Assembly (NCBI RefSeq): GCF_029688865.1
Contig: NZ_JARUKV010000028.1
Location: 1-64,000, forward strand
Direction: 5' to 3'
From: Natronococcus sp. A-GB7
Lineage (GTDB): Archaea; Halobacteriota; Halobacteria; Halobacteriales; Natrialbaceae
Length of the DNA: 64,000 bases
Below the pieces are notes generated by a model, which was given only the letters and a program-made list of their open reading frames with translations, did no database searches and was not told the origin of the DNA. The position numbers and the translations under genes were made by a program. Of the stretch, positions 649 to 46,751 are shown in pieces (the first letter of the stretch is position 1; each line of letters begins with the position of its first letter).

Positions 649-2592
649 TTGACCGTGCCCAGATTTCGTTGGCGCATCGTGTTGGTGGGAGTCGTTCTCG
701 GAATGGGGGCTCTCGCTGCGATGGGTATCTTCATAATCGATGTAGAACCGACAGCACCCAAACCAGCGCCTTTCGACGATACAGTCTCTATGGGTCTTGC
801 TCCAGACGACGAGTACGGACTCGAGGAGGGAGTCGAACTGCCGAAAGCACAGGTGTTCTACTCACAGTACGAGTACGTCGTCGGCTACTATGGCGTGGAG
901 CGATTCGTCGAGACGCAGCGTCAGGAGGCCCATACCCAACGGTTCGGTTATCCTCAGACGGTCTACGTTACGGACTACTCGAGCGTAGATCTCGAGTTAG
1001 CCGAGGAGGGGCATCCGATACCCAACACTACTCCGTCTTGGGTCGACGGCGAAGACGCGTGGTACGTTCACGGAAGCGATGCGAGGACGCCAAGCGGAGA
1101 GACACCGATCCCGTTCTCGGAGCGCGACGACGCGACTACATTCGCCGACACCCACGGCGGAACGGTGCTCACGTGGGACGAGCTGCTCGAAGAGCGATTC
1201 GAAACGGACGATGCCAGCGTCGTTCGTGACCGGGTCGATGGCCAACACCAGGAGGCCGACGAACACGTCGAATCCGCGAGATCGCTTCGCGAACGACCCG
1301 TTTCGACCGTGGTCGGCGACGATACGGAGACGATTCAGGAAGCGATCGAGCAGGCGCCCGCGAACACGACGGTCGTCGTCCCCGAAGGCGAGTACGAGGA
1401 GAAACTCGAGATCGATCGACCGGTGACGCTTCGCGGCGACGGTGACGTGACCGTCCGCGGTGACGGCACCGGATCGGTCATCACGACGACCGCAGAGCGG
1501 ACCGCCGTGGTCGGACTGACGGTTACCGGCTCGGGTTCGCAAGGATCACAGCGAGACGGCGATGCGGAGTTACCCGGAACCGAGAACGAAACCGGTGAGT
1601 GGGACGAACGGTTCGAGCGGAACTACGCGGGGGGCGATGCCGGAATCGCCGTCCATACCGCAAACCAGTCCTTAATCGAGGACGTTACCGTCGATTCGTC
1701 GGTAACGGGTATCCTCCTCCGACGCAGCGGCGAATCGGTCGTTCGGAACGTCACCGTCCACAGCCCGGCCGACTGGGAGGACGGACACGCCGGAATTCTC
1801 ATGTTTCGTACCCCCGGCGTAGTCGAGCAGACGACTGTGTACGACGGTAGAGACGCAGTATACTCCCACAACTCCCACGGGATCGTCGTTCGCGATAACG
1901 AACTCGAGGGGAACCGATTAGGGATCCATCTCATGCACACGTCGGACGCGTTGCTCGGAAACAACCAGCTCAGAGAGCAATCTAACACGGGGATCTTCGT
2001 TATGACCGGTCCGGAGCGCAACGCGATCGTCGACAACGACATTCGTGACACGGAGCAAGCGCTCTCTCCCGGTGGGAGCGACTCGTATGTCGCGGGGAAC
2101 GTTCTCGCGGACAGCGAAATCGGGTTGCGGGTCTCTGCGACGAACTCGATCTACGAGCGAAACGTCATCGCTGGCAACGAGATCGGGGCCGACATCAATC
2201 AACTGTTGCCGACGAACCAGGTGCTCGAGAACGACTTCGTCGAAAACGAGCGACACGCGACGGCGAGTTCCGGCCCGCTTCGAGTCTGGACGGTTAACGG
2301 GACCGGCAACTACTGGCAGGGAGCGGTCGGCTCCGATGACGGACGGACGATCGACCGATCTTACTCGCCGACCGATCCCGTCGACCAGCGGTTACACCGG
2401 GTTGACGGGACGCCGACGCTTGCACAAGCACCCGCTCTCGAAGCCCTCGCCGGCCTCGAGGGCAGTGTTCCCGGAATGCGAACCGGAAGCATCGTCGATC
2501 TGGCACCGACGTGCGATCCCAACAACCCCGATCTACTCGAACAGACGGAATGGGAAGACCAGACATGGTCCTGTGACACCCCAGCTTACTGA
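649..2592 (+). CDS. nosD: NosD-like right-handed beta-helix protein with NosL-like N-terminal domain
   Basis: This 647-residue protein is predicted to act outside the membrane in copper-centre maturation of nitrous oxide reductase. An N-terminal membrane anchor spans about residues 8-30. Residues 65-185 resemble NosL, ending with WYVHGSDARTPSG, TPIPF and a GGTVLTWDEL stretch, but I find no Cys or Met copper ligands in it. Residues 220-560 are NosD/CASH parallel beta-helix repeats such as TVVVPEGEYEEKLEI and repeated GI.V/N..I..N turns. nosF starts 4 bases after the stop, so nosD-F-Y look like one operon. The start could be TTG 649 or GTG 655. The ORF is intact, although no nosZ is visible in the window. 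Confidence 0.85.
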   Translation: MTVPRFRWRIVLVGVVLGMGALAAMGIFIIDVEPTAPKPAPFDDTVSMGLAPDDEYGLEEGVELPKAQVFYSQYEYVVGYYGVERFVETQRQEAHTQRFGYPQTVYVTDYSSVDLELAEEGHPIPNTTPSWVDGEDAWYVHGSDARTPSGETPIPFSERDDATTFADTHGGTVLTWDELLEERFETDDASVVRDRVDGQHQEADEHVESARSLRERPVSTVVGDDTETIQEAIEQAPANTTVVVPEGEYEEKLEIDRPVTLRGDGDVTVRGDGTGSVITTTAERTAVVGLTVTGSGSQGSQRDGDAELPGTENETGEWDERFERNYAGGDAGIAVHTANQSLIEDVTVDSSVTGILLRRSGESVVRNVTVHSPADWEDGHAGILMFRTPGVVEQTTVYDGRDAVYSHNSHGIVVRDNELEGNRLGIHLMHTSDALLGNNQLREQSNTGIFVMTGPERNAIVDNDIRDTEQALSPGGSDSYVAGNVLADSEIGLRVSATNSIYERNVIAGNEIGADINQLLPTNQVLENDFVENERHATASSGPLRVWTVNGTGNYWQGAVGSDDGRTIDRSYSPTDPVDQRLHRVDGTPTLAQAPALEALAGLEGSVPGMRTGSIVDLAPTCDPNNPDLLEQTEWEDQTWSCDTPAY

Positions 2593-2596
2593 ACTC

Positions 2597-3334
2597 ATGA
2601 CACGACACACACCACTACTGGAGGTTACGGCAGTCGACTACGACTATGGCAGCGTCGCGGTGCTAAACGATATCACGACTACGTTCGAGGAGGGGACGGT
2701 AACCGCACTGATCGGACCGAACGGATCCGGAAAGACGACGCTCCTTCGCGTCCTTGCCGGCCTGCTCGAACCGACTGACGGCTCGGTTCGTTACCGGGAC
2801 GCCAACGCAACCCGTCGGATCGGCTATCTTCCACAACAGCCCGCCTTCCGACCCGGGTTCACCGTCCTCGAGACGTTGCAGTTTTACTCTTCGCTGGTCG
2901 GCGCCGGAGAGACCGACGCAAGGACACGACTCGAACAAGTCGGTCTCGGAGATGCAGCCGAGCGGCCAGTCGAGGCGCTGTCCGGTGGAATGACTCGGTT
3001 AGTCGGGATCGCCCAGGCGACGATCGGGGATCCTCCGATTATCGTGCTCGATGAACCCGCGAGCGGGCTCGATCCCGGGATGAGTAAACACGTCTTCGAG
3101 ATCGCGACCGAGCTCGCCGACGCGGGAACGGCGGTCCTGTTGAGTTCCCACGATCTTGAACTGGTCGACCGGACTGCGCACGACGTTCTGATACTCGACG
3201 ACGGGCAGATCGTTCGCCACGGTCAGCCGGCCGCGATCCGAGCGGAACTCGGTGTCGGGTCGTTGCGTGCGGTATACGAAGACTCGATCGCTGCCGAAGA
3301 AGGGACCGTTCGAGTACAGGGGGTGAGTTCGTAG
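2597..3334 (+). CDS. nosF: ABC transporter ATP-binding protein NosF
   Basis: This 245-residue ABC ATPase is the expected energising subunit of the NosDFY complex. Walker A is GPNGSGKT (residues 40-47), the signature is LSGGM (128-132), and Walker B is IIVLDEP (148-154), followed by SGLDP and a SSHDLEL switch histidine region. The ATG at 2597 follows the nosD stop closely, which indicates translational coupling; reading frames further upstream overlap nosD and have no homology. Length matches the family. The specific name rests on its position between nosD and nosY. On its own it could be any CcmA-type ATPase. Confidence 0.88.
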   Translation: MTRHTPLLEVTAVDYDYGSVAVLNDITTTFEEGTVTALIGPNGSGKTTLLRVLAGLLEPTDGSVRYRDANATRRIGYLPQQPAFRPGFTVLETLQFYSSLVGAGETDARTRLEQVGLGDAAERPVEALSGGMTRLVGIAQATIGDPPIIVLDEPASGLDPGMSKHVFEIATELADAGTAVLLSSHDLELVDRTAHDVLILDDGQIVRHGQPAAIRAELGVGSLRAVYEDSIAAEEGTVRVQGVSS

Positions 3335-3335
3335 T

Positions 3336-4187
3336 ATGGAACACGAATCCGCACAGTCAGCCAGCGAGCGATCACCGTCGACGAGCCACCGCCTAGGAAC
3401 GGTCATCGATCGAGAGCTCCGGACAGTGGCTCGCACCCGAACCTTCTATCTGCTCACGGCCGCACTGACAGCCGTCGTCATCGGCATCACCTGGATTGGC
3501 GGCGGCTACGCGGCGGGATACCTTCCGACAGCCGTCGATCTCCTGACCCCTCTCGAGTTGCTCGTCCCAATCGTCGCCGTCGCCTTCGGCTACCGGGCGA
3601 TCCTCGCCGATGAACAGCGAGGAGAGCTCGACGTTCTCGAGACGTATCCGATCTCGCCACGCGAATTTGTCTTCGGCGTGTACGTGGGCCGCGCCGCTGG
3701 ACTGGTCGTGGCGATCTCCGTTCCGCTACTGCTTGCGGTAGTCGCCGTCGCAATCACCGATAGCGACATGCTCTCGATCTACGCGACACACACCGGTGCC
3801 GATTCGCCGCTCTTGTTTGCCCGGTTCTTCGTGCTGACCCTCCTGTTCGGTCTCGTCGTCCTTGCTATTGCACTCGCGATCTCCTCGCTCGTCAGCACGA
3901 CACGTAGCGCGCTCGGACTGTCGATAGTGGCGCTCGTTGTCCTGCTCGTCGGATTCGACCTGGCGCTCGTCTACGGACTCACCGAGGGAGTAGTCGGTGA
4001 CGAGAGTCTCCTCCACTCGCTCGCGGTCAGTCCGCTGAGCGCGTACCGCGGGCTCGTCCTCGAGACGGTGGTCACCGTCGCATCGGGTACCGGGCCGCGA
4101 GTCGCCTCGCCTGTCGCGAGCATTCTCGGACTCGCCGCCTGGACCGCGGGATCGCTCGCCGTTGCCGTCTGGAGCGTCAGCCGTTGA
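3336..4187 (+). CDS. nosY: ABC-2 type permease NosY
   Basis: This 283-residue multispanning membrane protein has about six hydrophobic segments (near residues 38-58, 65-85, 120-140, 165-190, 195-215, 255-280) after a short Ser-rich cytoplasmic head. It begins one base after the nosF stop. In denitrifiers NosY forms the channel of the NosFY ABC complex that works with NosD. The motif ADEQRGELDVLETYPISPREFVF (about residues 90-112) is typical of ABC-2 permeases of this group. A 207-base convergent gap with no supported gene separates it from nosL on the opposite strand. Confidence 0.85.
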   Translation: MEHESAQSASERSPSTSHRLGTVIDRELRTVARTRTFYLLTAALTAVVIGITWIGGGYAAGYLPTAVDLLTPLELLVPIVAVAFGYRAILADEQRGELDVLETYPISPREFVFGVYVGRAAGLVVAISVPLLLAVVAVAITDSDMLSIYATHTGADSPLLFARFFVLTLLFGLVVLAIALAISSLVSTTRSALGLSIVALVVLLVGFDLALVYGLTEGVVGDESLLHSLAVSPLSAYRGLVLETVVTVASGTGPRVASPVASILGLAAWTAGSLAVAVWSVSR

Positions 4188-4394
4188 CATCTTCTACGGC
4201 GTGTTCACCGCCGCTGTATCAGGAGAAAACGGAGAAACGAGTCTACAGGCAGAGCAGGCCGAGTACCTCGGGATCGGTCGAAAATCGAAGATTTTCGTGA
4301 CTGAGTGGAACTTCGTTCCGGGACGTCGGCGAAACCGAAGGTTCGATTGACGACGAGGCGCATTCGGCGTCTCGAACCGCTTGACCCCGAGGTT

Positions 4395-4994
4395 TCACAT
4401 TAAGGACATGACGAGTTCGGCGGTCACGTCCTCGTGTTCGTACGTATCACCACCGTACTCGGCCTGGAAGTCGTCGGCCTCGGAAGCGTCGGTAAAGCCG
4501 ATCATCGACGATCCCATCGCTCCCTCGACCTCGCTGTCAACGACCAACGTGAGGCCGCCGACGTCGGCGAACGCTTCGTCTTCGAGATGGTTACTGATCT
4601 CCAACCCGTCGTCACCTTCCTCAACGGTATAGTCGACAGTCGAGTAGTCGGTCAGGTAACTCACCTCCGGCTCGTGGCCGGCGTCCTCCTGCTCGAAGGT
4701 GAACGTGTACGTACACAGCGAGCTGCAAAACTGTGCCGGCCGGTCCTCATCGAGGACGTCCTCGGGATTGGCGTAGTGCGCCTGCCCCACCGGTCCGGGA
4801 TGTTGGCCAATCGCCATCGTACAGTGATCGCAGTCCTTGTCATCGTCGATCGTAATCGGATCTGGGTGGTCGTCGCCATCGTCACCGAAACAGCCGGCCA
4901 TCGCAGTGACGCCGAGACTGGCGCTCCCAGCGAGAAACGTTCGTCGTGTCGGGCGGTGCTTACGGGAAAACAGCCGAGCTGGTCGGTCGTTCAT
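4395..4994 (-). CDS. nosL: NosL-family copper-binding lipoprotein
   Basis: This 199-residue lipoprotein has a twin-arginine-like signal (RRTFLAG) and lipobox MAGC (Cys35). The mature part starts with the NosL metal motif CDHCTM (residues 55-60), followed by FCSSLC (Cys90 and Cys94), YLTDYS, and a C-terminal MIGFTDASEADDFQAEYGG segment of the NosL fold. NosL proteins bind Cu(I) and supply it to the nitrous oxide reductase apparatus. The gene faces the nosDFY operon convergently and is divergent from the broken SCO1-like gene. The free-standing NosL keeps the metal ligands that are absent from the NosL-like domain fused to NosD. Confidence 0.87.
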   Translation of the reverse strand: MNDRPARLFSRKHRPTRRTFLAGSASLGVTAMAGCFGDDGDDHPDPITIDDDKDCDHCTMAIGQHPGPVGQAHYANPEDVLDEDRPAQFCSSLCTYTFTFEQEDAGHEPEVSYLTDYSTVDYTVEEGDDGLEISNHLEDEAFADVGGLTLVVDSEVEGAMGSSMIGFTDASEADDFQAEYGGDTYEHEDVTAELVMSLM

Positions 4995-5109: not shown

Positions 5110-5500
5110 ATGAATCGACGCGATCTTCTCGCTAGTGGTACGGTTGCCTGTCTTGCGCCCATCGCCGGTTGTCTGACCGGACGGATCGGCGACGAACCGT
5201 CCGGCGAGGTGGTGGTGGACTCGCCGGGTGAGAACGCTCAAGCGATCCCTCGTATCCGACCTACGGCGACTCCTTTCCGACGTTCGAGCTTCCTGATCCC
5301 CTGCTGGAAACATCTGTCGACGTCAACAGTATCGACGAGGAGTGTCTCGTCTGCACGACGTTCTTCGCGACCTGCCCTGCCGAATGTGCGCCGCTGATGC
5401 ATTCGATTTCGACTGTTCAGGCCAACAGCCTCGAGAGCGGAGTCAACGACGATGGCCGGTTTCTCGCGATCACGTTCGATCCCGAACCGGAAAGCCGCGC
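5110..5500 (+). pseudogene. Broken SCO1/SenC-like copper chaperone lipoprotein gene
   Basis: The ATG at 5110 encodes a lipoprotein signal ending in the lipobox IAGC and runs to about base 5240. There the homologous reading moves to another frame. The continued frame gives YPTYGDSFPTFELPDPLLE, ECLVCTTFFATCPAEC and then FLAITFDPEPE, which is SCO1-like: a thioredoxin fold with a Cys-rich CxxxC region. After about base 5490 the similarity stops, and the rest of the fold, including the late conserved histidine, is absent. The gene therefore carries a frameshift and a 3' truncation. SCO proteins deliver copper to oxidases and often accompany nos genes, so this fits a decaying copper-protein locus. 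A sequencing error could explain the frameshift but not the truncation. Confidence 0.75.
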
Positions 5501-5545
5501 TTCGAAGTCGAACAACGAAAAAAGCGATCGCAAAAGAGGCGACGC

Positions 5546-7426
5546 TCAGAGCTTGGAGACGTCGACGTCGAACGTCCCGTCGTCGTTCTCCTCGATCGCG
5601 CCCTTCTCCCGCAGTTCGTCGTAGCTGTCGTCGGTCACGAGCAGGCGCTCGGAGACCGTCTCGCAGTCCTCGTCGGACTGCTGCTCGCGGGTCGTGTCCT
5701 CGGTTTCGCTCTGTGAGGTGCGCGTGTCGCTGTCGCGGTCGCTGTCGTTTCGGGTCGTCTCGCGCGTGTCGAGGTCGCTGTCGGCCTCGCTGAGGTCGCG
5801 TTCGCTCTCCTCGGCGCTGTCGCGCTCGCTCTCGCTCAGATCGCGGTCGCTCGAGTCGTGGGCGCTGTCCCGATCGCTCGCCTCGTCGCTCGCGGACTCG
5901 GACTGGTAGCGCTCGTCGGTGCCGGTGTCGCTCTCGCTGTCGGTCTCGAGTTCGGAGGCAGCCTCCTCGCTGCGATCGCGGTCGCTCTCCTCGAGTTCGT
6001 CGGTAGCGGTGCTGCCGTCGCGCTCGGATTCGCTGCTCGAGCTGGCGCGCTCGGACTCGTCGGACTCGCTGGCGTCGCGCTCGGCCTCGCTGTCCGCCGT
6101 CTCGAGGTCGCGTTCGGCGGAGTCGTTGTCGGTCTCGCTCACGCTGCGATCGCTCTCGTCGCTGCCGGAGGCGGCGCGCTCGCGCTCGGACTCGCCCTCG
6201 CTGGCGTCACGCTCGCTCACGTCGCGGTCGCTCTCGGCGCCCTGGTCGCTGGACTCGCTGCGCTCGGCGTCCCGTTCGGTGCCCTCCTCGGCCTCCCGGT
6301 CGGACTCGGTCTCGCGTTCGTCGCTCGCGGTTTCGTCGCGCTCGCTCTCGTCGGACGCGTGCTCGGCCGACTCGCGCTCGCTTTCGCTGAGATCCGACTC
6401 GGCCTCCTCGCGGTCGATCTCGTCGCGGACCGTGCGGTCGCCGACGTCCTCGCTCTCGACGCTGTCGAAGCGCTCGCGGTCGCCGTCGTCGATCCGATCG
6501 CGCTCGTCGATTTCGGCGCTGCTCTCGCTTTCGTCGCGTTCCTGGGACTCGCTCTCGCTCGAGTCGCTCTCACTGGCGTCGCGCTCGGCGTCGCTCTCGG
6601 CCGATTCGGTCTCGGCGGCGTCGCGCTCGCTCTCCGCGCGGTCGCTCGAGTCCGACGCCCGCTCTGCTTCGCTCTCGCTCGAGTCGCCCCGTTCGGATTC
6701 GCTTACCTCGAGGTCGGTGCGGTCGGCGTCGACGTCGCTCGAGCTGGCGTCGCGCTCGGACTCGGCTGATTCGCTGTCGCTCGCAGCCTCACGCTCGTCG
6801 TGTTCGCTCCGGGTCGTCTCGTCCTCGTCGTACGTGCTGTCCCCGTCGCGGCTGTCGTGCTCGCTGTGGGTGCTGTCGCTCTCGCGCTCGCCCTCGCTGG
6901 CGTCGCTCGCGTCGCGCTCGTGCTCGCGGTCGTCCCGCTCGTTCTCGACGTCGGTGTCGTCGACCGTCCGCTCGGAGCGGTCGCTGTCGCTCTCGTCGAC
7001 GGCACTGGCGTCACGCTCGCTCGAGCTGTCGCGCTGTTCGTCGCGGTCGTTCAGCTCGGAATCGATCCGCTCGTCCTCGCTTGCGCTGTCGCTGGCGCTG
7101 GCGCGGTCGCTGCGCTCGCTCTCGGAGAGGTCCCTGTCGCTCGCGCTGTCACTCGCGCTGTCGCGTTCGCTCAGGTCGCGCTCGCTATCGCTCTCGCTAT
7201 GGTCGAGATTGCCACGCTCCCGGTCGCTCTGGCTCTCGCTCTCCCGTTCGTCGAGGTCCGTCTCGGTGGCGATTTGCTCGTCCGTCTGTTCGCTCACGTC
7301 GCATCGCTCGTCGTCCAGCGTGTAGACGACGACGTGGTCGTCTGGACCGACGACGCTGCCGGCGCCGATCGCGCCGGCGAGCACGATGAGTCCGATGGCC
7401 GTGAGTACGCTGAGTTCCTGAATCAT
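5546..7426 (-). CDS. Membrane-anchored Ser/Asp/Glu/Arg-repeat protein of unknown function
   Basis: This is a 626-residue protein. Residues 5-27 form one hydrophobic anchor followed by a short ordered stretch (VVVYTLDDERCDV). Residues about 55-585 are almost entirely S, D, E, R and A in irregular short repeats such as SERDAS, DLSESER and AESERD. The C-terminal 37 residues are normal sequence (LLVTDDSYDELREKGAIEE then DGTFDV). Unlike typical halophilic acidic tails, acidic residues are balanced by many arginines, so this is a mixed-charge, probably disordered spacer. The opposite strand also stays open over most of this length, but only this strand has a plausible start, anchor and folded end. 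The function is unknown. Cell-surface or envelope location is inferred from the anchor. Confidence 0.8.
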   Translation of the reverse strand: MIQELSVLTAIGLIVLAGAIGAGSVVGPDDHVVVYTLDDERCDVSEQTDEQIATETDLDERESESQSDRERGNLDHSESDSERDLSERDSASDSASDRDLSESERSDRASASDSASEDERIDSELNDRDEQRDSSSERDASAVDESDSDRSERTVDDTDVENERDDREHERDASDASEGERESDSTHSEHDSRDGDSTYDEDETTRSEHDEREAASDSESAESERDASSSDVDADRTDLEVSESERGDSSESEAERASDSSDRAESERDAAETESAESDAERDASESDSSESESQERDESESSAEIDERDRIDDGDRERFDSVESEDVGDRTVRDEIDREEAESDLSESERESAEHASDESERDETASDERETESDREAEEGTERDAERSESSDQGAESDRDVSERDASEGESERERAASGSDESDRSVSETDNDSAERDLETADSEAERDASESDESERASSSSESERDGSTATDELEESDRDRSEEAASELETDSESDTGTDERYQSESASDEASDRDSAHDSSDRDLSESERDSAEESERDLSEADSDLDTRETTRNDSDRDSDTRTSQSETEDTTREQQSDEDCETVSERLLVTDDSYDELREKGAIEENDDGTFDVDVSKL

Positions 7427-7579: not shown

Positions 7580-7629
7580 TCCCGGTCCGAACAGGTGCGC
7601 CCCATCCCGGTCCGAACGGGTGCGACCCG
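7580..7629. repeat. Two-copy 25-bp tandem repeat
   Basis: TCCCGGTCCGAACAGGTGCG and TCCCGGTCCGAACGGGTGCG begin at 7580 and 7605, giving two 25-base units with a few differences. They lie in the short intergenic region between the repeat-protein gene (minus) and the zinc-finger gene (plus). They could be a regulator site or a simple duplication. Confidence 0.7.
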
Positions 7630-7703: not shown

Positions 7704-8318
7704 ATGACGAAACGATGTCCCTACTGCGGCGAGTCGGTTGCCGACGACGAGTACGTCTCGCACCTCGAGCGGGCGCACGACGGCGACCTCGAGGGCCTGG
7801 ACCGCCGGCTCGTCGACGAACACGGCCGCACCGCGTCCAGAAACGTCAAGCCGTACGTCCTCGGCGTCGCCGTCGTCGTCCTGTTCGTCGTCGCGTACCT
7901 GGCGATCTTCCTGATGCCCGCACCGGTCGAGACAGCGGCGGTACAGCAACCCGACGCGGACAGTCCGACCCACCTCCACGGCGATATCCTTCTCGAGTAC
8001 GACGGGTCGGTCGTCGACTTCGACGATCCGCAGTACATCGAGCGGGACAGCTGCTTCCACTTCCACGGCTACGATAACGCCGAGGTCTGGCACGTCCACT
8101 GCGAGGGCGTCACCCTCGAGTACGCGATGGCGACGCTCGGGATGGAACTCGCCGAGGACTCCCTCGCCGTCGACGGCGAGGTGTACGACGAGGACGACGC
8201 CGGGACGACCGTCTCGGTGACGGTAAACGGCGACCCCGTCGATCCGGAGCGGTACGTCCTCGAGGACGGTGACGACGTTCGCATCGTCGCCGAAACGGAT
8301 CGGAGGGCGGATTCGTGA
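7704..8318 (+). CDS. C2H2 zinc-finger membrane protein, His-rich outer domain
   Basis: This 204-residue protein of unknown function starts at ATG 7704, because its first residues form a zinc finger: Cys5, Cys8, His20 and His25 in MTKRCPYCGE...SHLERAH. A single transmembrane helix spans residues 51-71. The outer domain holds HLHGD (90-94), CFHFHGY (117-123) and VWHVHCEG (128-135), a cluster of histidines and cysteines suggestive of metal binding. The last third looks like a small beta domain. The topology implies a cytoplasmic zinc finger and an external metal-rich domain. I do not recognise a named family. An ordinary structural role for the zinc is also possible. Confidence 0.78.
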   Translation: MTKRCPYCGESVADDEYVSHLERAHDGDLEGLDRRLVDEHGRTASRNVKPYVLGVAVVVLFVVAYLAIFLMPAPVETAAVQQPDADSPTHLHGDILLEYDGSVVDFDDPQYIERDSCFHFHGYDNAEVWHVHCEGVTLEYAMATLGMELAEDSLAVDGEVYDEDDAGTTVSVTVNGDPVDPERYVLEDGDDVRIVAETDRRADS

Positions 8319-8439: not shown

Positions 8440-11400
8440 ATGACGACACGCTTTCCCTCGTCGGTCGACGATCCGCTCTTCAGGGACGTCGTGGAGACCG
8501 GTGCCGACGGACTCGTCGTTCTCGACACCGACGGCACGATCGTCTTCACGAGCTCGCACGTGCCCGAACTTCTCGGCTACGATGCCGAGGAACTCCTCGA
8601 GGGATCGATCGACCGCCTCTTTCCGAAGGGCGAATCGAGCCCGCTCGAGCGGATTCTCGAGCGGGCGCCGGCAGCCGACGTCGACCGGACACGCGACCGG
8701 ATCGACTGCGAACTCGCCCATAGCAGCGGGCGCTCGATCCCCGTAGAGCTGGCCGCGGCGACGGTCGACATCGACGGGGAGCGCTACCGCACGGTCGTCG
8801 TTCGGACGGACCCCGAACCGACCCCGAACCGGCGACCGAGCCGCGACCGCCCGCCGACGAGGATCGAGATCGACGGCCGCCGTTCGGACTCCGGGTCCGA
8901 AGCGCGAAGCGAACGCGACGTCGACGAGAGCCGGCTCGAGGCGCTCTACGACGCGAGCCGGAAACTTCACGCGGCCGAGACGAGGGGTGACGTCGGACGG
9001 ATCGCGGTCGATCTCGTACAGACGGTGCTCGGGCGGTCCTACGCCGCGGTGTGGCGGTTCGACGCCGACGAGGAGCTACTCGAGCCCCTGGCCGCCAGCA
9101 GATCGGTTCGCTCGTCGGCCGTCGACGACGGCGCCGCGGCAGACATCGCGCCGATCCTCCCCGGAACGGTCGAGATGGAGGTCTTCCGCGAGGGAGACGC
9201 CAGACTCGTCGAAACGTACCATGCGGTCGACCGATCCGCACATCCCGAGATCGGGCTCGAGGAGCGGCTCGTCGTGCCCCTCGGCGAGATCGGGCTCCTG
9301 ACGGTCGGCTCGACTGACGGCGAGACGATCGACGACTCGCTGCGAAACCTGATCGGAATCCTGGCGTCGACGATCCAGGCCGCGTTCGACCGCCTCGACG
9401 CCGAGGATGCGATCCGACACCGGTCGGCGGCGATGGAGTCGGCGATGGATGGGATGGCGATCTCGGACGAGTCCGGCGAGCTCCGGTACGTAAACCGCGC
9501 GCTCGCCGACCTGCACGGCTACGGCGTCGACGAACTCGTCGGCTCGTCCTGGCAAATACTCTTTCCGGACGAGGAGGTCGAGCGAATCGAGCGAGACGCC
9601 ATCCCCGCCGTGCTGGACGCGGGCTACTGGCGCGGCGAGGCCGTCGGACAGCGCGCTGACGGCACCCGCTTCCACCAGGAGCACTCCCTCACCGCACTCG
9701 AGGACGGGATCGTCTGCGTCGTCCGCGACGTCACCGACCGGAAAACCTGGGAACAGCGACTCGAGGCGCTCAACGTCGTCGCCCGCGAGCTGATGTGTGC
9801 CGAGACCGCGACCGACATTGCTCGAACCGGCGCCGAAGCCATCGAGACCGTCCTCGAGTTCGAGATCGCCTGCGTTCGACTCTTCGAGCCGGAGACGAAC
9901 CAGCTCGAGTGCGTCGCGATGACCGACGGCGCCAGGGAGCTCCTGGAGGTGCGAACCGCCTACGACCTCGAGGCGACACTGGCCGGACGCGCGTTCAGGA
10001 ACCGGGAGCCGGTACGCAACGTGATCGACGAGCAGGAACGGACCGATCCGGGGCTGTTCGAACACTCGAGCATCCACGTTCCGATCGGGGCCCACGGCGT
10101 TCTCACGGTGCTCGCACGGGAGGACGAGAGCCTCGACAGCAGCGACCTGCATCTCACGGAGATGCTGGCGATGGGGATCGGTGCCGCGCTGACTCGGGCC
10201 GAGCGGACCCAGCTCCTGCGTACCCAGGAGCGGGAACTCCGCCAGCAGCGCGATCAGCTCGAGACGCTGAATCGGATCAACGCCGTCAACAACGACCTCG
10301 TCACCGGACTGGTGGCGGCGACAACTCGCGAGGAACTGGATCGAATGATCTGCGAGCAGCTGGTCGCGTCGGATCTCTACCGGAGCGCCTGGATCGGTCG
10401 CGTCGAGGGAGTCGACGATCGGATCGGATCGCCCGTCGCCGCCGGCGTCGAGGACGGCTATCTCGAAACCGTGACGAAGACCCGGCTCGGTTCGATCGCC
10501 GGCGGCACCGTCGAGCGGGCGGTCGAGACCGGTGACGTTCACGTCGTCCGGCAGTATCAGATCACGGAGAACCGCGGGGCCGACGACGAACCCGCCAGGG
10601 ACGTCGAGGCGATCGCCGCGGTCCCGTTGCTGTACGGCGAGCAGACCGTCGGCGTACTCGTCCTCAACAGCGTTCGCGACGACGTCTTCACCGAGGACGC
10701 CATCGCGGGGTTCGAGTCCCTCGGGAGGATCGTCGGCTTCGCCAAGAACGCCCTCAAGAGCCGGGAGCTGCTGCTGGCCGACTCCATCGTCGAACTCGAG
10801 TTCTCGCTGCGCGACCCGGCCGTCTTCTACGTCCGGCTCACGGCCGAGCACGACTGTCGCTGCGAGTTCCGGCGGGCGATCCCCCTCGAGAACGGTCGCG
10901 TGATGCTCTACCACCGGGTTTCGGGCGTCGAGCCGGCGACCGTCCTCGAGGCCGCCGAGGCGGCGTCCGAGATCGAAAGCGCCCGCGCGGTCTCGGAGCG
11001 CCACGACGGGTTCGTCCTCCAGACGGTCACCGAGAACTCGATGATCCAGCTCGCGCTCGAGTCCGGGACCGCGGTTCGCTCGGCGGTCGCCGAGGACGGC
11101 GAGGGGACGGTCGTCATCGAGGCCCCGCAGAGCGCCGACGTCCGTGACGTCGTCGCGACGTTCGACGGCGAGTTCGACGAGCTCGAGCTCGTCGCCAAGC
11201 GCGAACGCGAGCGCTCGGTGACGACCGCCGACACCTTCCGGGAATCCGTCGGCGATCAGCTGACCGACAAGCAACGCGCGGCCCTCGAGTCGGCGTACTT
11301 CGCCGGCTACTACGACTGGCCTCGGAAGATCACGGCCGAGGAGCTGGCCGACTCGATCGGCATCTCCTCCTCGACGCTCCACCAGCACCTCCGTCGGGGG

Positions 11401-11475
11401 AACTGGTGTCTGCTGTCGGCGTTCTTCGGCACCGGCGAAGACGACTCTGATGTAGAGGTATCGCGCTCGAGGTGA
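8440..11475 (+). CDS. Bat-like multi-sensor transcriptional regulator (PAS-GAF-PAS-GAF-GAF-HTH_10)
   Basis: This is a 1011-residue sensor-regulator. The apparent order is an N-terminal PAS domain (about 10-125), a GAF-like domain (165-310), a second PAS (325-435), two further GAF-like domains (445-585, 600-780), a bacterio-opsin-activator-type domain (785-935) and a C-terminal helix-turn-helix of the HTH_10 family (about 940-996). The HTH contains LTDKQRAALESAYFAGYY and SIGISSSTLHQHLRRG. Haloarchaeal proteins of this plan sense redox, light or small ligands and bind promoters directly. No kinase domain is present. The ATG at 8440 is preceded by a TGGTG/CACCA inverted repeat near 8400-8420. 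Its targets and ligand cannot be deduced from the sequence. Confidence 0.88.
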   Translation: MTTRFPSSVDDPLFRDVVETGADGLVVLDTDGTIVFTSSHVPELLGYDAEELLEGSIDRLFPKGESSPLERILERAPAADVDRTRDRIDCELAHSSGRSIPVELAAATVDIDGERYRTVVVRTDPEPTPNRRPSRDRPPTRIEIDGRRSDSGSEARSERDVDESRLEALYDASRKLHAAETRGDVGRIAVDLVQTVLGRSYAAVWRFDADEELLEPLAASRSVRSSAVDDGAAADIAPILPGTVEMEVFREGDARLVETYHAVDRSAHPEIGLEERLVVPLGEIGLLTVGSTDGETIDDSLRNLIGILASTIQAAFDRLDAEDAIRHRSAAMESAMDGMAISDESGELRYVNRALADLHGYGVDELVGSSWQILFPDEEVERIERDAIPAVLDAGYWRGEAVGQRADGTRFHQEHSLTALEDGIVCVVRDVTDRKTWEQRLEALNVVARELMCAETATDIARTGAEAIETVLEFEIACVRLFEPETNQLECVAMTDGARELLEVRTAYDLEATLAGRAFRNREPVRNVIDEQERTDPGLFEHSSIHVPIGAHGVLTVLAREDESLDSSDLHLTEMLAMGIGAALTRAERTQLLRTQERELRQQRDQLETLNRINAVNNDLVTGLVAATTREELDRMICEQLVASDLYRSAWIGRVEGVDDRIGSPVAAGVEDGYLETVTKTRLGSIAGGTVERAVETGDVHVVRQYQITENRGADDEPARDVEAIAAVPLLYGEQTVGVLVLNSVRDDVFTEDAIAGFESLGRIVGFAKNALKSRELLLADSIVELEFSLRDPAVFYVRLTAEHDCRCEFRRAIPLENGRVMLYHRVSGVEPATVLEAAEAASEIESARAVSERHDGFVLQTVTENSMIQLALESGTAVRSAVAEDGEGTVVIEAPQSADVRDVVATFDGEFDELELVAKRERERSVTTADTFRESVGDQLTDKQRAALESAYFAGYYDWPRKITAEELADSIGISSSTLHQHLRRGNWCLLSAFFGTGEDDSDVEVSRSR

Positions 11476-45173: not shown

Positions 45174-46751
45174 TCACTCGTCGTTCTCAGTTTCTTCGTC
45201 CCCATCATCGTCCTCGTCTTCGGTATCCTCGGCGTCGTTTTCCCCACTGCCTTCATCGCCGTCGGTGTCGTCGGTATCACTCTCCCCGCTCTCCCCGCTC
45301 TCCTCGCCGTTTTCGCCGTTCTCGTCGTCTACGTCCTCTTCTTCGTCTTCCGCATCATCCTCGTTGTCCTCGTCCTCGCTGCCTTCGTCATTTCCCTCTT
45401 CGTCCTCCTCGCCGTTTTCGCCGTTCTCGCCTTCTCCGTTCTCGTCGCCCTCTTCCTCACCGCTTTCGTCATTTCCCTCTTCGCCCTCCTCGCCGTTTTC
45501 GCCGTTCTCGTCTTCTCCGTTCTCGTCGCCCTCTTCCTCACCGCTTTCGTCATTTCCCTCTTCGCCCTCCTCGCCGTTTTCGCCGTTCTCGTCTTCTACG
45601 TCCTCTTCTTCGTCTTCCGCATCGTCTTCGTTGCCCTCTTCCTCACCGCTTTCGTCATTTCCCTCTTCGTCCTCCTCGCCGTTTTCGCCGTTCTCGTCTT
45701 CGTCGCCCTCTTCCTCGCCGCTTTCGTCATTTCCCTCTTCGCCCCCCTCGCCGTTTTCGCCGTTCTCGTCGTCTACGTCCTCTTCTTCGTCTTCCGCATC
45801 GTCTTCGTTGCCCTCTTCCTCACCGCTTTCGTCATTTCCCTCTTCGTCCGCCTCATCATCGTCGTCGTCGTCGGCTGGATCGTCGTCGTCGGCTGGATCG
45901 TCGTCATCGGCCGGATCGTCGTCATCGGCCGGATCGTCGTCGTCAGCCGGATCATCGTCGGCTGGATCGTCATCGTCGTCGTCGGCTGGATCGTCGTCAT
46001 CGGCCGGATCGTCATCGTCGTCGTCGGCTGGGTCGTCATCGTCGGCTGGGTCGTCATCATCAGCCGGATCGTCATCGTCGTCGTCGGCTGGGTCGTCATC
46101 GTCGTCATCGCCCGGCTCGTCGTCAACCGGGTCGTCATCATCGTCGTCAACCGGGTCGTCGTCATCGTCTGGCTCGGCAGTATCGTCGTCCTCTTCCTCG
46201 GGCTCGTAGGACTCCTCGTCCAGATCGCCGATCTCGAGTTCGTACGACGCCGTTCCCTCGCAGTTGCTCAGCGGGAACGAGTAGACGGCACTCTCGCCCG
46301 GTTCGGGACTCGACTCGTCGGCGAAGTGGATACTCGCGAGTTCGTCGCCGTCCTCGTCGTAGACCCGGGCCTCCATATCGACGGTGATCTCCTCGTCGCC
46401 GACGTTCTCGAGTTCGACGTGGACGTTGCACTCGTCACCCGGCGGATCGTCCGCCCAGGTAAAGGTGTGGCGCAGAGCCTCGAGGGTATCGCTAGCGGCA
46501 CCGGAGATGATAACCTCGCCGTCGATCGACTGGTCCTCGTACTGGTTCTGTTCGTCCTCGGCCTCGTCGTCGGCATCGTCGGCATCGTCACTGCCATCGG
46601 CGTCGTCCCACTCCTCCGGTCCGTCGCCGTCCCTGGCCGACTCGTTGTCCGATTCGTCGTCCTCGTCGTCCTCGATGGCGCTACAGCCCGCCAGGATAGC
46701 CGAAAGTGATACCCCCGCAGCCGTACTGAACTCGCGCCGGTTTAGATCCAT
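45174..46751 (-). CDS. Lipoprotein with hyperacidic DDDDPAD and ENGENGEE repeat tail
   Basis: This 525-residue protein has a Tat-like signal (NRREFSTAAG) and lipobox LAGC (Cys23). After a short acidic linker, residues about 75-185 form a beta-sandwich-like domain (NVHVELENVGDEEITVDMEAR; YSFPLSNCEGTASYELEIG). From about residue 190 to the end, the chain is repeats. First come many DPADDDD units, then longer units built from GNDESGEEEGDE and ENGENGEE, with no hydrophobic residues to speak of. The tail is strongly anionic and surely disordered. The opposite strand is also open here but codes an I/V/L-rich mirror and has no signal. The function is unknown. The tail could bind cations or space the domain from the surface. 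Confidence 0.85.
   Translation of the reverse strand: MDLNRREFSTAAGVSLSAILAGCSAIEDDEDDESDNESARDGDGPEEWDDADGSDDADDADDEAEDEQNQYEDQSIDGEVIISGAASDTLEALRHTFTWADDPPGDECNVHVELENVGDEEITVDMEARVYDEDGDELASIHFADESSPEPGESAVYSFPLSNCEGTASYELEIGDLDEESYEPEEEDDDTAEPDDDDDPVDDDDDDPVDDEPGDDDDDDPADDDDDDPADDDDPADDDDPADDDDDDPADDDDPADDDDDDPADDDPADDDDPADDDDPADDDDPADDDDPADDDDDDEADEEGNDESGEEEGNEDDAEDEEEDVDDENGENGEGGEEGNDESGEEEGDEDENGENGEEDEEGNDESGEEEGNEDDAEDEEEDVEDENGENGEEGEEGNDESGEEEGDENGEDENGENGEEGEEGNDESGEEEGDENGEGENGENGEEDEEGNDEGSEDEDNEDDAEDEEEDVDDENGENGEESGESGESDTDDTDGDEGSGENDAEDTEDEDDDGDEETENDE

Follow-up and report, generated by a model that had tools for sequence, protein, structure and literature searches.

Gene A, which lies in the window (the whole 64,000-nt stretch of DNA analyzed here), belongs, together with its partner gene B, to an undescribed two-gene family found in Natrialbaceae and in one genome of another haloarchaeal family. 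In both proteins a core rich in Ser, Asp, Glu and Arg lies between two conserved cysteines, and in B these cysteines are exactly 548 residues apart in 21 of 22 genes, across seven genera and two families. Low-complexity, charge-rich segments are usually taken as disordered and free to vary in length, whereas B keeps its 548 residues while more than half of them change. Such a fixed length, maintained despite up to 60% sequence change, suggests a structure built to length rather than a floppy spacer. Our preferred reading, to which we assign a probability of roughly 40%, is that A and B would be paired, exported subunits of an ordered extracellular rod or fiber of fixed length in haloalkaliphilic archaea. 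Its chief rival is a disordered brush under unusually exact length selection.

Coding potential and conservation of gene A

The original prediction of a gene at 5546–7426 was borne out: the reading frame has 626 codons on the reverse strand (Table 1) and is conserved in homologs. Gene A is under purifying selection and strongly constrained: dN/dS ratios range from 0.11 to 0.30 across homologs, and close-pair comparisons of the core with the two closest species gave values of 0.12–0.16, similar to those of neighboring genes (0.13 for the BAT-type regulator, 0.10–0.12 for the hdac-like and cca-like genes). G+C content at codon position 3 is 0.91. A 468-codon antisense ORF over A, which lacks conservation, was rejected as an artifact.

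Table 1. Features of gene A and its surroundings in the window.
Feature	Position	Strand	Basis or remark
SDER protein A (paralog A of the pair), 626 aa	5546..7426	-	ORF, homologs and dN/dS
Residues 1–28, hydrophobic signal peptide or membrane anchor	7343..7426	-	by eye
Ser/Asp/Glu/Arg core bounded by Cys42 and Cys588, a spacing of 546 residues; acidic period of 2.37 residues	5663..7303	-	sequence
Residues 589–626, predicted A-specific C-terminal mini-domain, short strand-helix-strand-strand	5549..5662	-	AlphaFold, pLDDT 70–78
Terminator-like stem and T-run directly 3′ of A	5527..5543	-	1 found vs. 1.6 expected, i.e. chance level
Two 25-bp direct repeats between the divergent A and membrane partner genes, putative operator	7580..7628	.	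Tandem Repeats Finder
Membrane partner with a head resembling a Zn finger, a single TM segment, and HxHG, CFHFH and WHxHC motifs in its outer domain	7704..8318	+	motifs invariant
PAS/GAF/BAT/HTH_10 regulator, adjoining the membrane partner gene	8440..11475	+	Pfam

Both ends of the protein, originally described as folded, proved to be conserved in homologs. They are at or near 100% identity to those of the two closest species, and the C-terminus is 95–100% identical among Natronococcus. For the 38 residues that follow Cys588, the AlphaFold model agreed in predicting a folded segment. The N-terminus is hydrophobic in all A and B proteins (approximately residues 6–28 in the window's A) and may be a signal peptide instead of a membrane anchor; judging from these sequences, A and B are probably both secreted. 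The direct repeats in the intergenic region upstream of A are a possible operator or regulator site.

Distribution of the A/B family and its gene neighborhood

Homologs were collected by searching with the C-terminus of A and then by a named-genome search. A was found in Natronococcus, Natronorubrum, Natrialba, Natronolimnohabitans, Halostagnicola and a MAG named Natrialbaceae archaeon. B (~620–665 aa) is encoded in tandem with A or nearby and has a similar N-terminus and the same Cys pair; its C-terminal tail is unlike that of A, is often acidic and ends in a hydrophobic stretch. In the genome from which the window derives, B is located on a separate contig, adjoining a gene for a DUF4352 lipoprotein.

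Searching the 125 genomes of the GTDB family gave matches in 18, and A and B occur together in every intact carrier except G134 and G005, which hold B alone (G005 being fragmented). One of the 18, G070, contributes only a decayed remnant of A (L091, 9346–9953), whose signal region carries a stop and whose interior has lost a large segment, both ends being still readable. As three Natronococcus genomes (G003, G006 and G008) gave no match for the SDER genes, the system is not essential to the haloalkaliphilic life style. The named carriers are, we presume, largely haloalkaliphiles from soda lakes, and the record for Natronorubrum bangense states a salt-alkaline lake. An order-wide sample also revealed G415, which belongs to another haloarchaeal family and carries the complete module (L103, 8437–14560). 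Among the 146 genomes of its family G415 is the sole carrier, which suggests that the module was likely acquired by horizontal transfer. Extra B-like copies are carried by Natronorubrum (G132, G138) and by G086 (L081, L082, L080), and Natronococcus pandeyae has a second B (L089); all of these share the 548-residue spacing.

Further genes recur with the pair. Strong matches to the membrane partner, whose outer domain is rich in His and Cys, (E below 1e-80) were obtained in 16 of the 125 family genomes, which are the SDER carriers minus the fragmented G005 and the G070 remnant. The PAS/GAF/BAT/HTH_10 regulator family is represented at every SDER locus examined, and the DUF4352 lipoprotein is a recurrent neighbor of the SDER genes.

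The A/B family is undescribed in Pfam, NCBIfam, PHROGs and the PDB sequences searched: neither Pfam, nor NCBIfam (searched with A), nor PHROGs contained a known family for it, and an A+B profile retrieved zero matches from the PDB. Comparing the fold of the A model with PDB structures likewise returned zero relatives, and a literature search found no papers on the family. In Natronorubrum bangense, the one annotated record examined, the family is listed as ‘hypothetical protein’, and the locus resides on an 828-kb replicon listed as a plasmid. A phage origin was rejected, as phage records and PHROGs gave zero matches.

Composition and periodicity of the core

The A core (~545 residues) is composed of 40% Asp and Glu, 27% Ser and Thr, and 11.5% Arg, with zero Lys. 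The balance of acidic and basic charges originally noted for this segment is therefore not found: Arg is high, Lys is absent, and the net charge is about –158. Net charges range from –135 to –182, with Arg being used and Lys almost absent, and Arg in place of Lys suits a high pH, above 9. Both cysteines are retained in all intact A and B proteins. These two residues bounding the core, the paralog B and the near-constant length were all missing from the original description.

The label ‘repeat’ also needs correction, since Tandem Repeats Finder detected short patches only, a tandem array being absent, and the internal order is quasi-periodic. In all A and B proteins tested, the acidic residues show a period of ~2.38 residues (2.34–2.41), with z-scores of 9–20 against shuffled sequences and 3.6–6.1 against order-3 Markov models on a reduced alphabet. 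Simple avoidance of adjacent acids was rejected as the source of this period, as Markov models of order 1–3 on a four-letter reduced alphabet yielded approximately half of the observed power. Autocorrelation of the core peaks at 2, 5, 7, 12, 14 and 24 residues, which fits a mixture of 5- and 7-residue units (e.g. SERDx and SESERDx), and the commonest words are ERD, SES, ESER and SERD. For hydrophobic residues, a strong common period was not found in the core.

A period of ~2.4 residues fits an extended, twisted strand. The phase of the acidic residues drifts over ~100 residues, with local periods of 2.3–2.45 and no long-range coherence, so the core is not a regular solenoid. AlphaFold, run on a 20-sequence alignment, predicted no structure for the A core (pLDDT ~35), for which a shallow, low-complexity alignment is a weak test.

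Length conservation in B

The original prediction had proposed comparing the length of the repeat between strains. This length turned out to be near-constant—the opposite of what a loose spacer would show—with cores of 541–551 residues in 14 of 16 A proteins, in addition to the single spacing of B. Across the full Cys–Cys span, B can be aligned without gaps at identities of 42–50% between Natronococcus and other Natrialbaceae, and of 38–52% to G415. When the acidic positions of G415, the most remote copy, were compared with the family profile, a correlation of 0.66 was obtained at shift 0, compared with 0.0 ± 0.1 at the other shifts, implying that B has kept its register, beyond its total length; small compensating shifts are possible near columns 248–264. 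The one deviant B, with a spacing of 536, is a single case and belongs to G134, where A and a close DUF4352 relative were not detected.

A cores, by comparison, assume nine length values between 504 and 551. On trees of about equal length (4.09 substitutions per site for A and 4.21 for B), at least eight length changes were counted in A vs. one in B, a contrast that is modest on its own (P ~0.02 for equal rates). In Natrialba hulunbeirensis an A core of 504 residues is found together with a B core of 548, and a strict register between A and B is thus not required there. The B core is depleted of indels relative to its flank, with one change over 548 positions vs. ten length states, from 26 to 77 residues, in the tail after the second cysteine. 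At equal per-residue rates, the chance of at most one such event in the core would be ~3e-10, a figure derived from a rough count of length states and not from a phylogenetic test. As a control, an acidic repeat lipoprotein was measured in five of the Natronococcus species compared above, and was found to span 447, 525, 525, 558 and 600 aa. In the window its gene occupies 45174–46751 on the reverse strand and encodes DDDDPADDDD and EEGNDESGEEE arrays; its length varies among close species.

A proposed fixed-length rod and alternative explanations

If A and B form a rod, each chain would leave the cell via its N-terminal hydrophobic segment. With the chain extended and twisted at ~2.4 residues per turn, the acidic residues would then all point to the same side, with Ser, Ala and Arg on the other faces, and chains could pair side by side in register, stabilized by salt and by Arg–carboxylate contacts. 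The cysteines at each end could lock chains or chain ends through disulfides. B would set the length, and the cap or decoration of the rod would come from A, which has a more variable core, a higher Arg content and a folded mini-domain at its C-terminus. Anchoring or assembly of the rod might fall to the DUF4352 lipoprotein together with the Zn-finger/TM protein, and its control to the BAT-type regulator.

The original suggestion of a surface spacer, or of a role in biofilms or phase separation, survives in part. A surface or secreted location is plausible given the hydrophobic N-terminus and the conserved neighbors, which are membrane- or lipoprotein-like; a loose spacer, for which (as for a biofilm or phase-separating role) variable length would be expected, does not agree with the near-constant length. 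A bolder version of the rod reading would make the proteins a new structural class, namely a Ser/Asp/Glu/Arg strand without a hydrophobic core, stable at high salt and high pH, with an acidic face recurring every ~2.4 residues and a residue-exact length, used as an extracellular ruler or fiber with a capping subunit. We regard this as unlikely, if worth stating. Should the B segment fold or assemble, it would represent an architecture that lacks a hydrophobic core and suits saline, alkaline conditions, and it would allow a clean test of what fixes length in ‘disordered’ regions; should it be disordered, selection would be acting on the exact length of a disordered chain.

In the latter case, A and B may be disordered polyanionic surface brushes or spacers, selected for size and charge pattern (e.g. 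to retain water and cations where pH and salt are high), with the even spacing of acids reflecting avoidance of charge clusters rather than a fold. This explanation is possible, and we entertain it tentatively, as it accounts for the composition, the strongly negative net charge and the A core without a predicted fold, and the use of Arg with almost no Lys would suit carriers that presumably live largely in soda lakes. Moreover, according to Mikhonin et al. (2005), as cited in PMC8779100, poly-Glu itself favors an extended helix of 2.5 residues when charged. A brush, however, needs neither one exact length nor the gap-free, position-specific conservation seen in 21 B genes, and the constant register of B argues against it. 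Indels are, besides, tolerated elsewhere (in A, in the B tail and in the control protein), and the three Natronococcus genomes lacking a match count against a brush as well.

Alternatively, A and B could be secreted scaffolds that handle cations or metals for the membrane partner, whose outer domain carries His/Cys motifs and a weak similarity to beta-grasp proteins. The co-occurrence of this partner with the SDER genes, its invariant motifs and the nos copper genes adjoining the window locus would all be in keeping with such a role. Using Foldseek, its outer domain was matched to transcobalamin beta domains and to 3u7z, a DUF4430-like metal-binding protein, at E-values of 0.02–0.2; for 3u7z the target-normalized TM score reached up to 0.6. 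These fold matches are non-significant and the partner model is poor (pLDDT 61), nos genes were not recognized at the other carriers' loci examined, and a metal scaffold leaves the fixed length unexplained, which makes this reading improbable.

Least probable of all, and in our view very much so, is that the constant length stems only from the youth of the family, recent transfer, gene conversion or mixed-codon low-complexity DNA that does not slip, as the G415 copy points to horizontal transfer but B differs at 50–60% of positions between genera, and length has varied over the same time in the core of A, in the tail of B and in the control lipoprotein. Overlapping antisense genes were also considered as a source of the constant length and rejected, with stops scattered and frames unconserved.

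Comparison with known systems

Haloarchaea possess large, acidic extracellular proteins with low-complexity sequence at their surface, halomucin among them. A and B resemble halomucin in being acidic proteins of halophiles with a predicted extracellular site, but are far smaller, fixed in length and devoid of mucin-type modules by Pfam. RTX/beta-roll proteins and other beta-solenoids are Asp-rich, exported and built on short periods. A and B share the Asp-rich composition, a predicted export and the short periods, yet have neither a nonapeptide motif nor a coherent coil period. Membership in the RTX or regular beta-solenoid proteins was thus rejected, there being no coherent coil repeat and the phase drifting. 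A rod made of a single alpha-helix of the E-R/K type was rejected as well, as the sequences are rich in Ser and Asp, contain almost no Lys and show no core helix in the A model.

With the staphylococcal Sdr/MSCRAMM proteins (PMC5902956), which are exported and place a Ser/Asp-rich segment beside folded parts, A and B share these traits (export being predicted) together with the occurrence of tandem paralogs at a single locus. The SD region of Sdr proteins can gain residues (PMC5902956). Unlike them (PMC5902956), A and B lack an array of SD dipeptides and an LPXTG anchor, A ending in its mini-domain instead, and a ligand-binding A domain was not found. They were therefore not assigned to this family, in which an SD repeat, an LPXTG sorting signal and Ig-like A/B domains are expected, and no Pfam or NCBIfam match was obtained.

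The coiled coils of the synaptonemal complex, SYP-1 to SYP-5, have a fixed length and a core depleted of indels despite sequence divergence (PMC8598163). The A/B family shows the same combination of divergent sequence, fixed length, indel-poor core and variable tail, which is an analogy and not homology; by this analogy, A and B may be length-conserved structural surface proteins. In contrast to the SYP proteins, A and B have no hydrophobic heptad, and their period is 2.38 rather than 3.5. For a rod of A and B themselves, a coiled coil was consequently rejected, the charge period of 2.38 departing from the heptad value of 3.5 and the A model showing no helix in the core.

Genes adjoining A in the window

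Between the nos genes and A, a short and apparently frameshifted ORF lies at 5110–5540 on the forward strand; by eye it resembles a truncated copper-delivery protein of the Sco type, and Pfam gave no match for the 95-aa ORF. The nos cluster itself (649–4994) encodes a protein that combines NosL-like and NosD domains, an ABC ATPase, an ABC-2 permease and a separate NosL.
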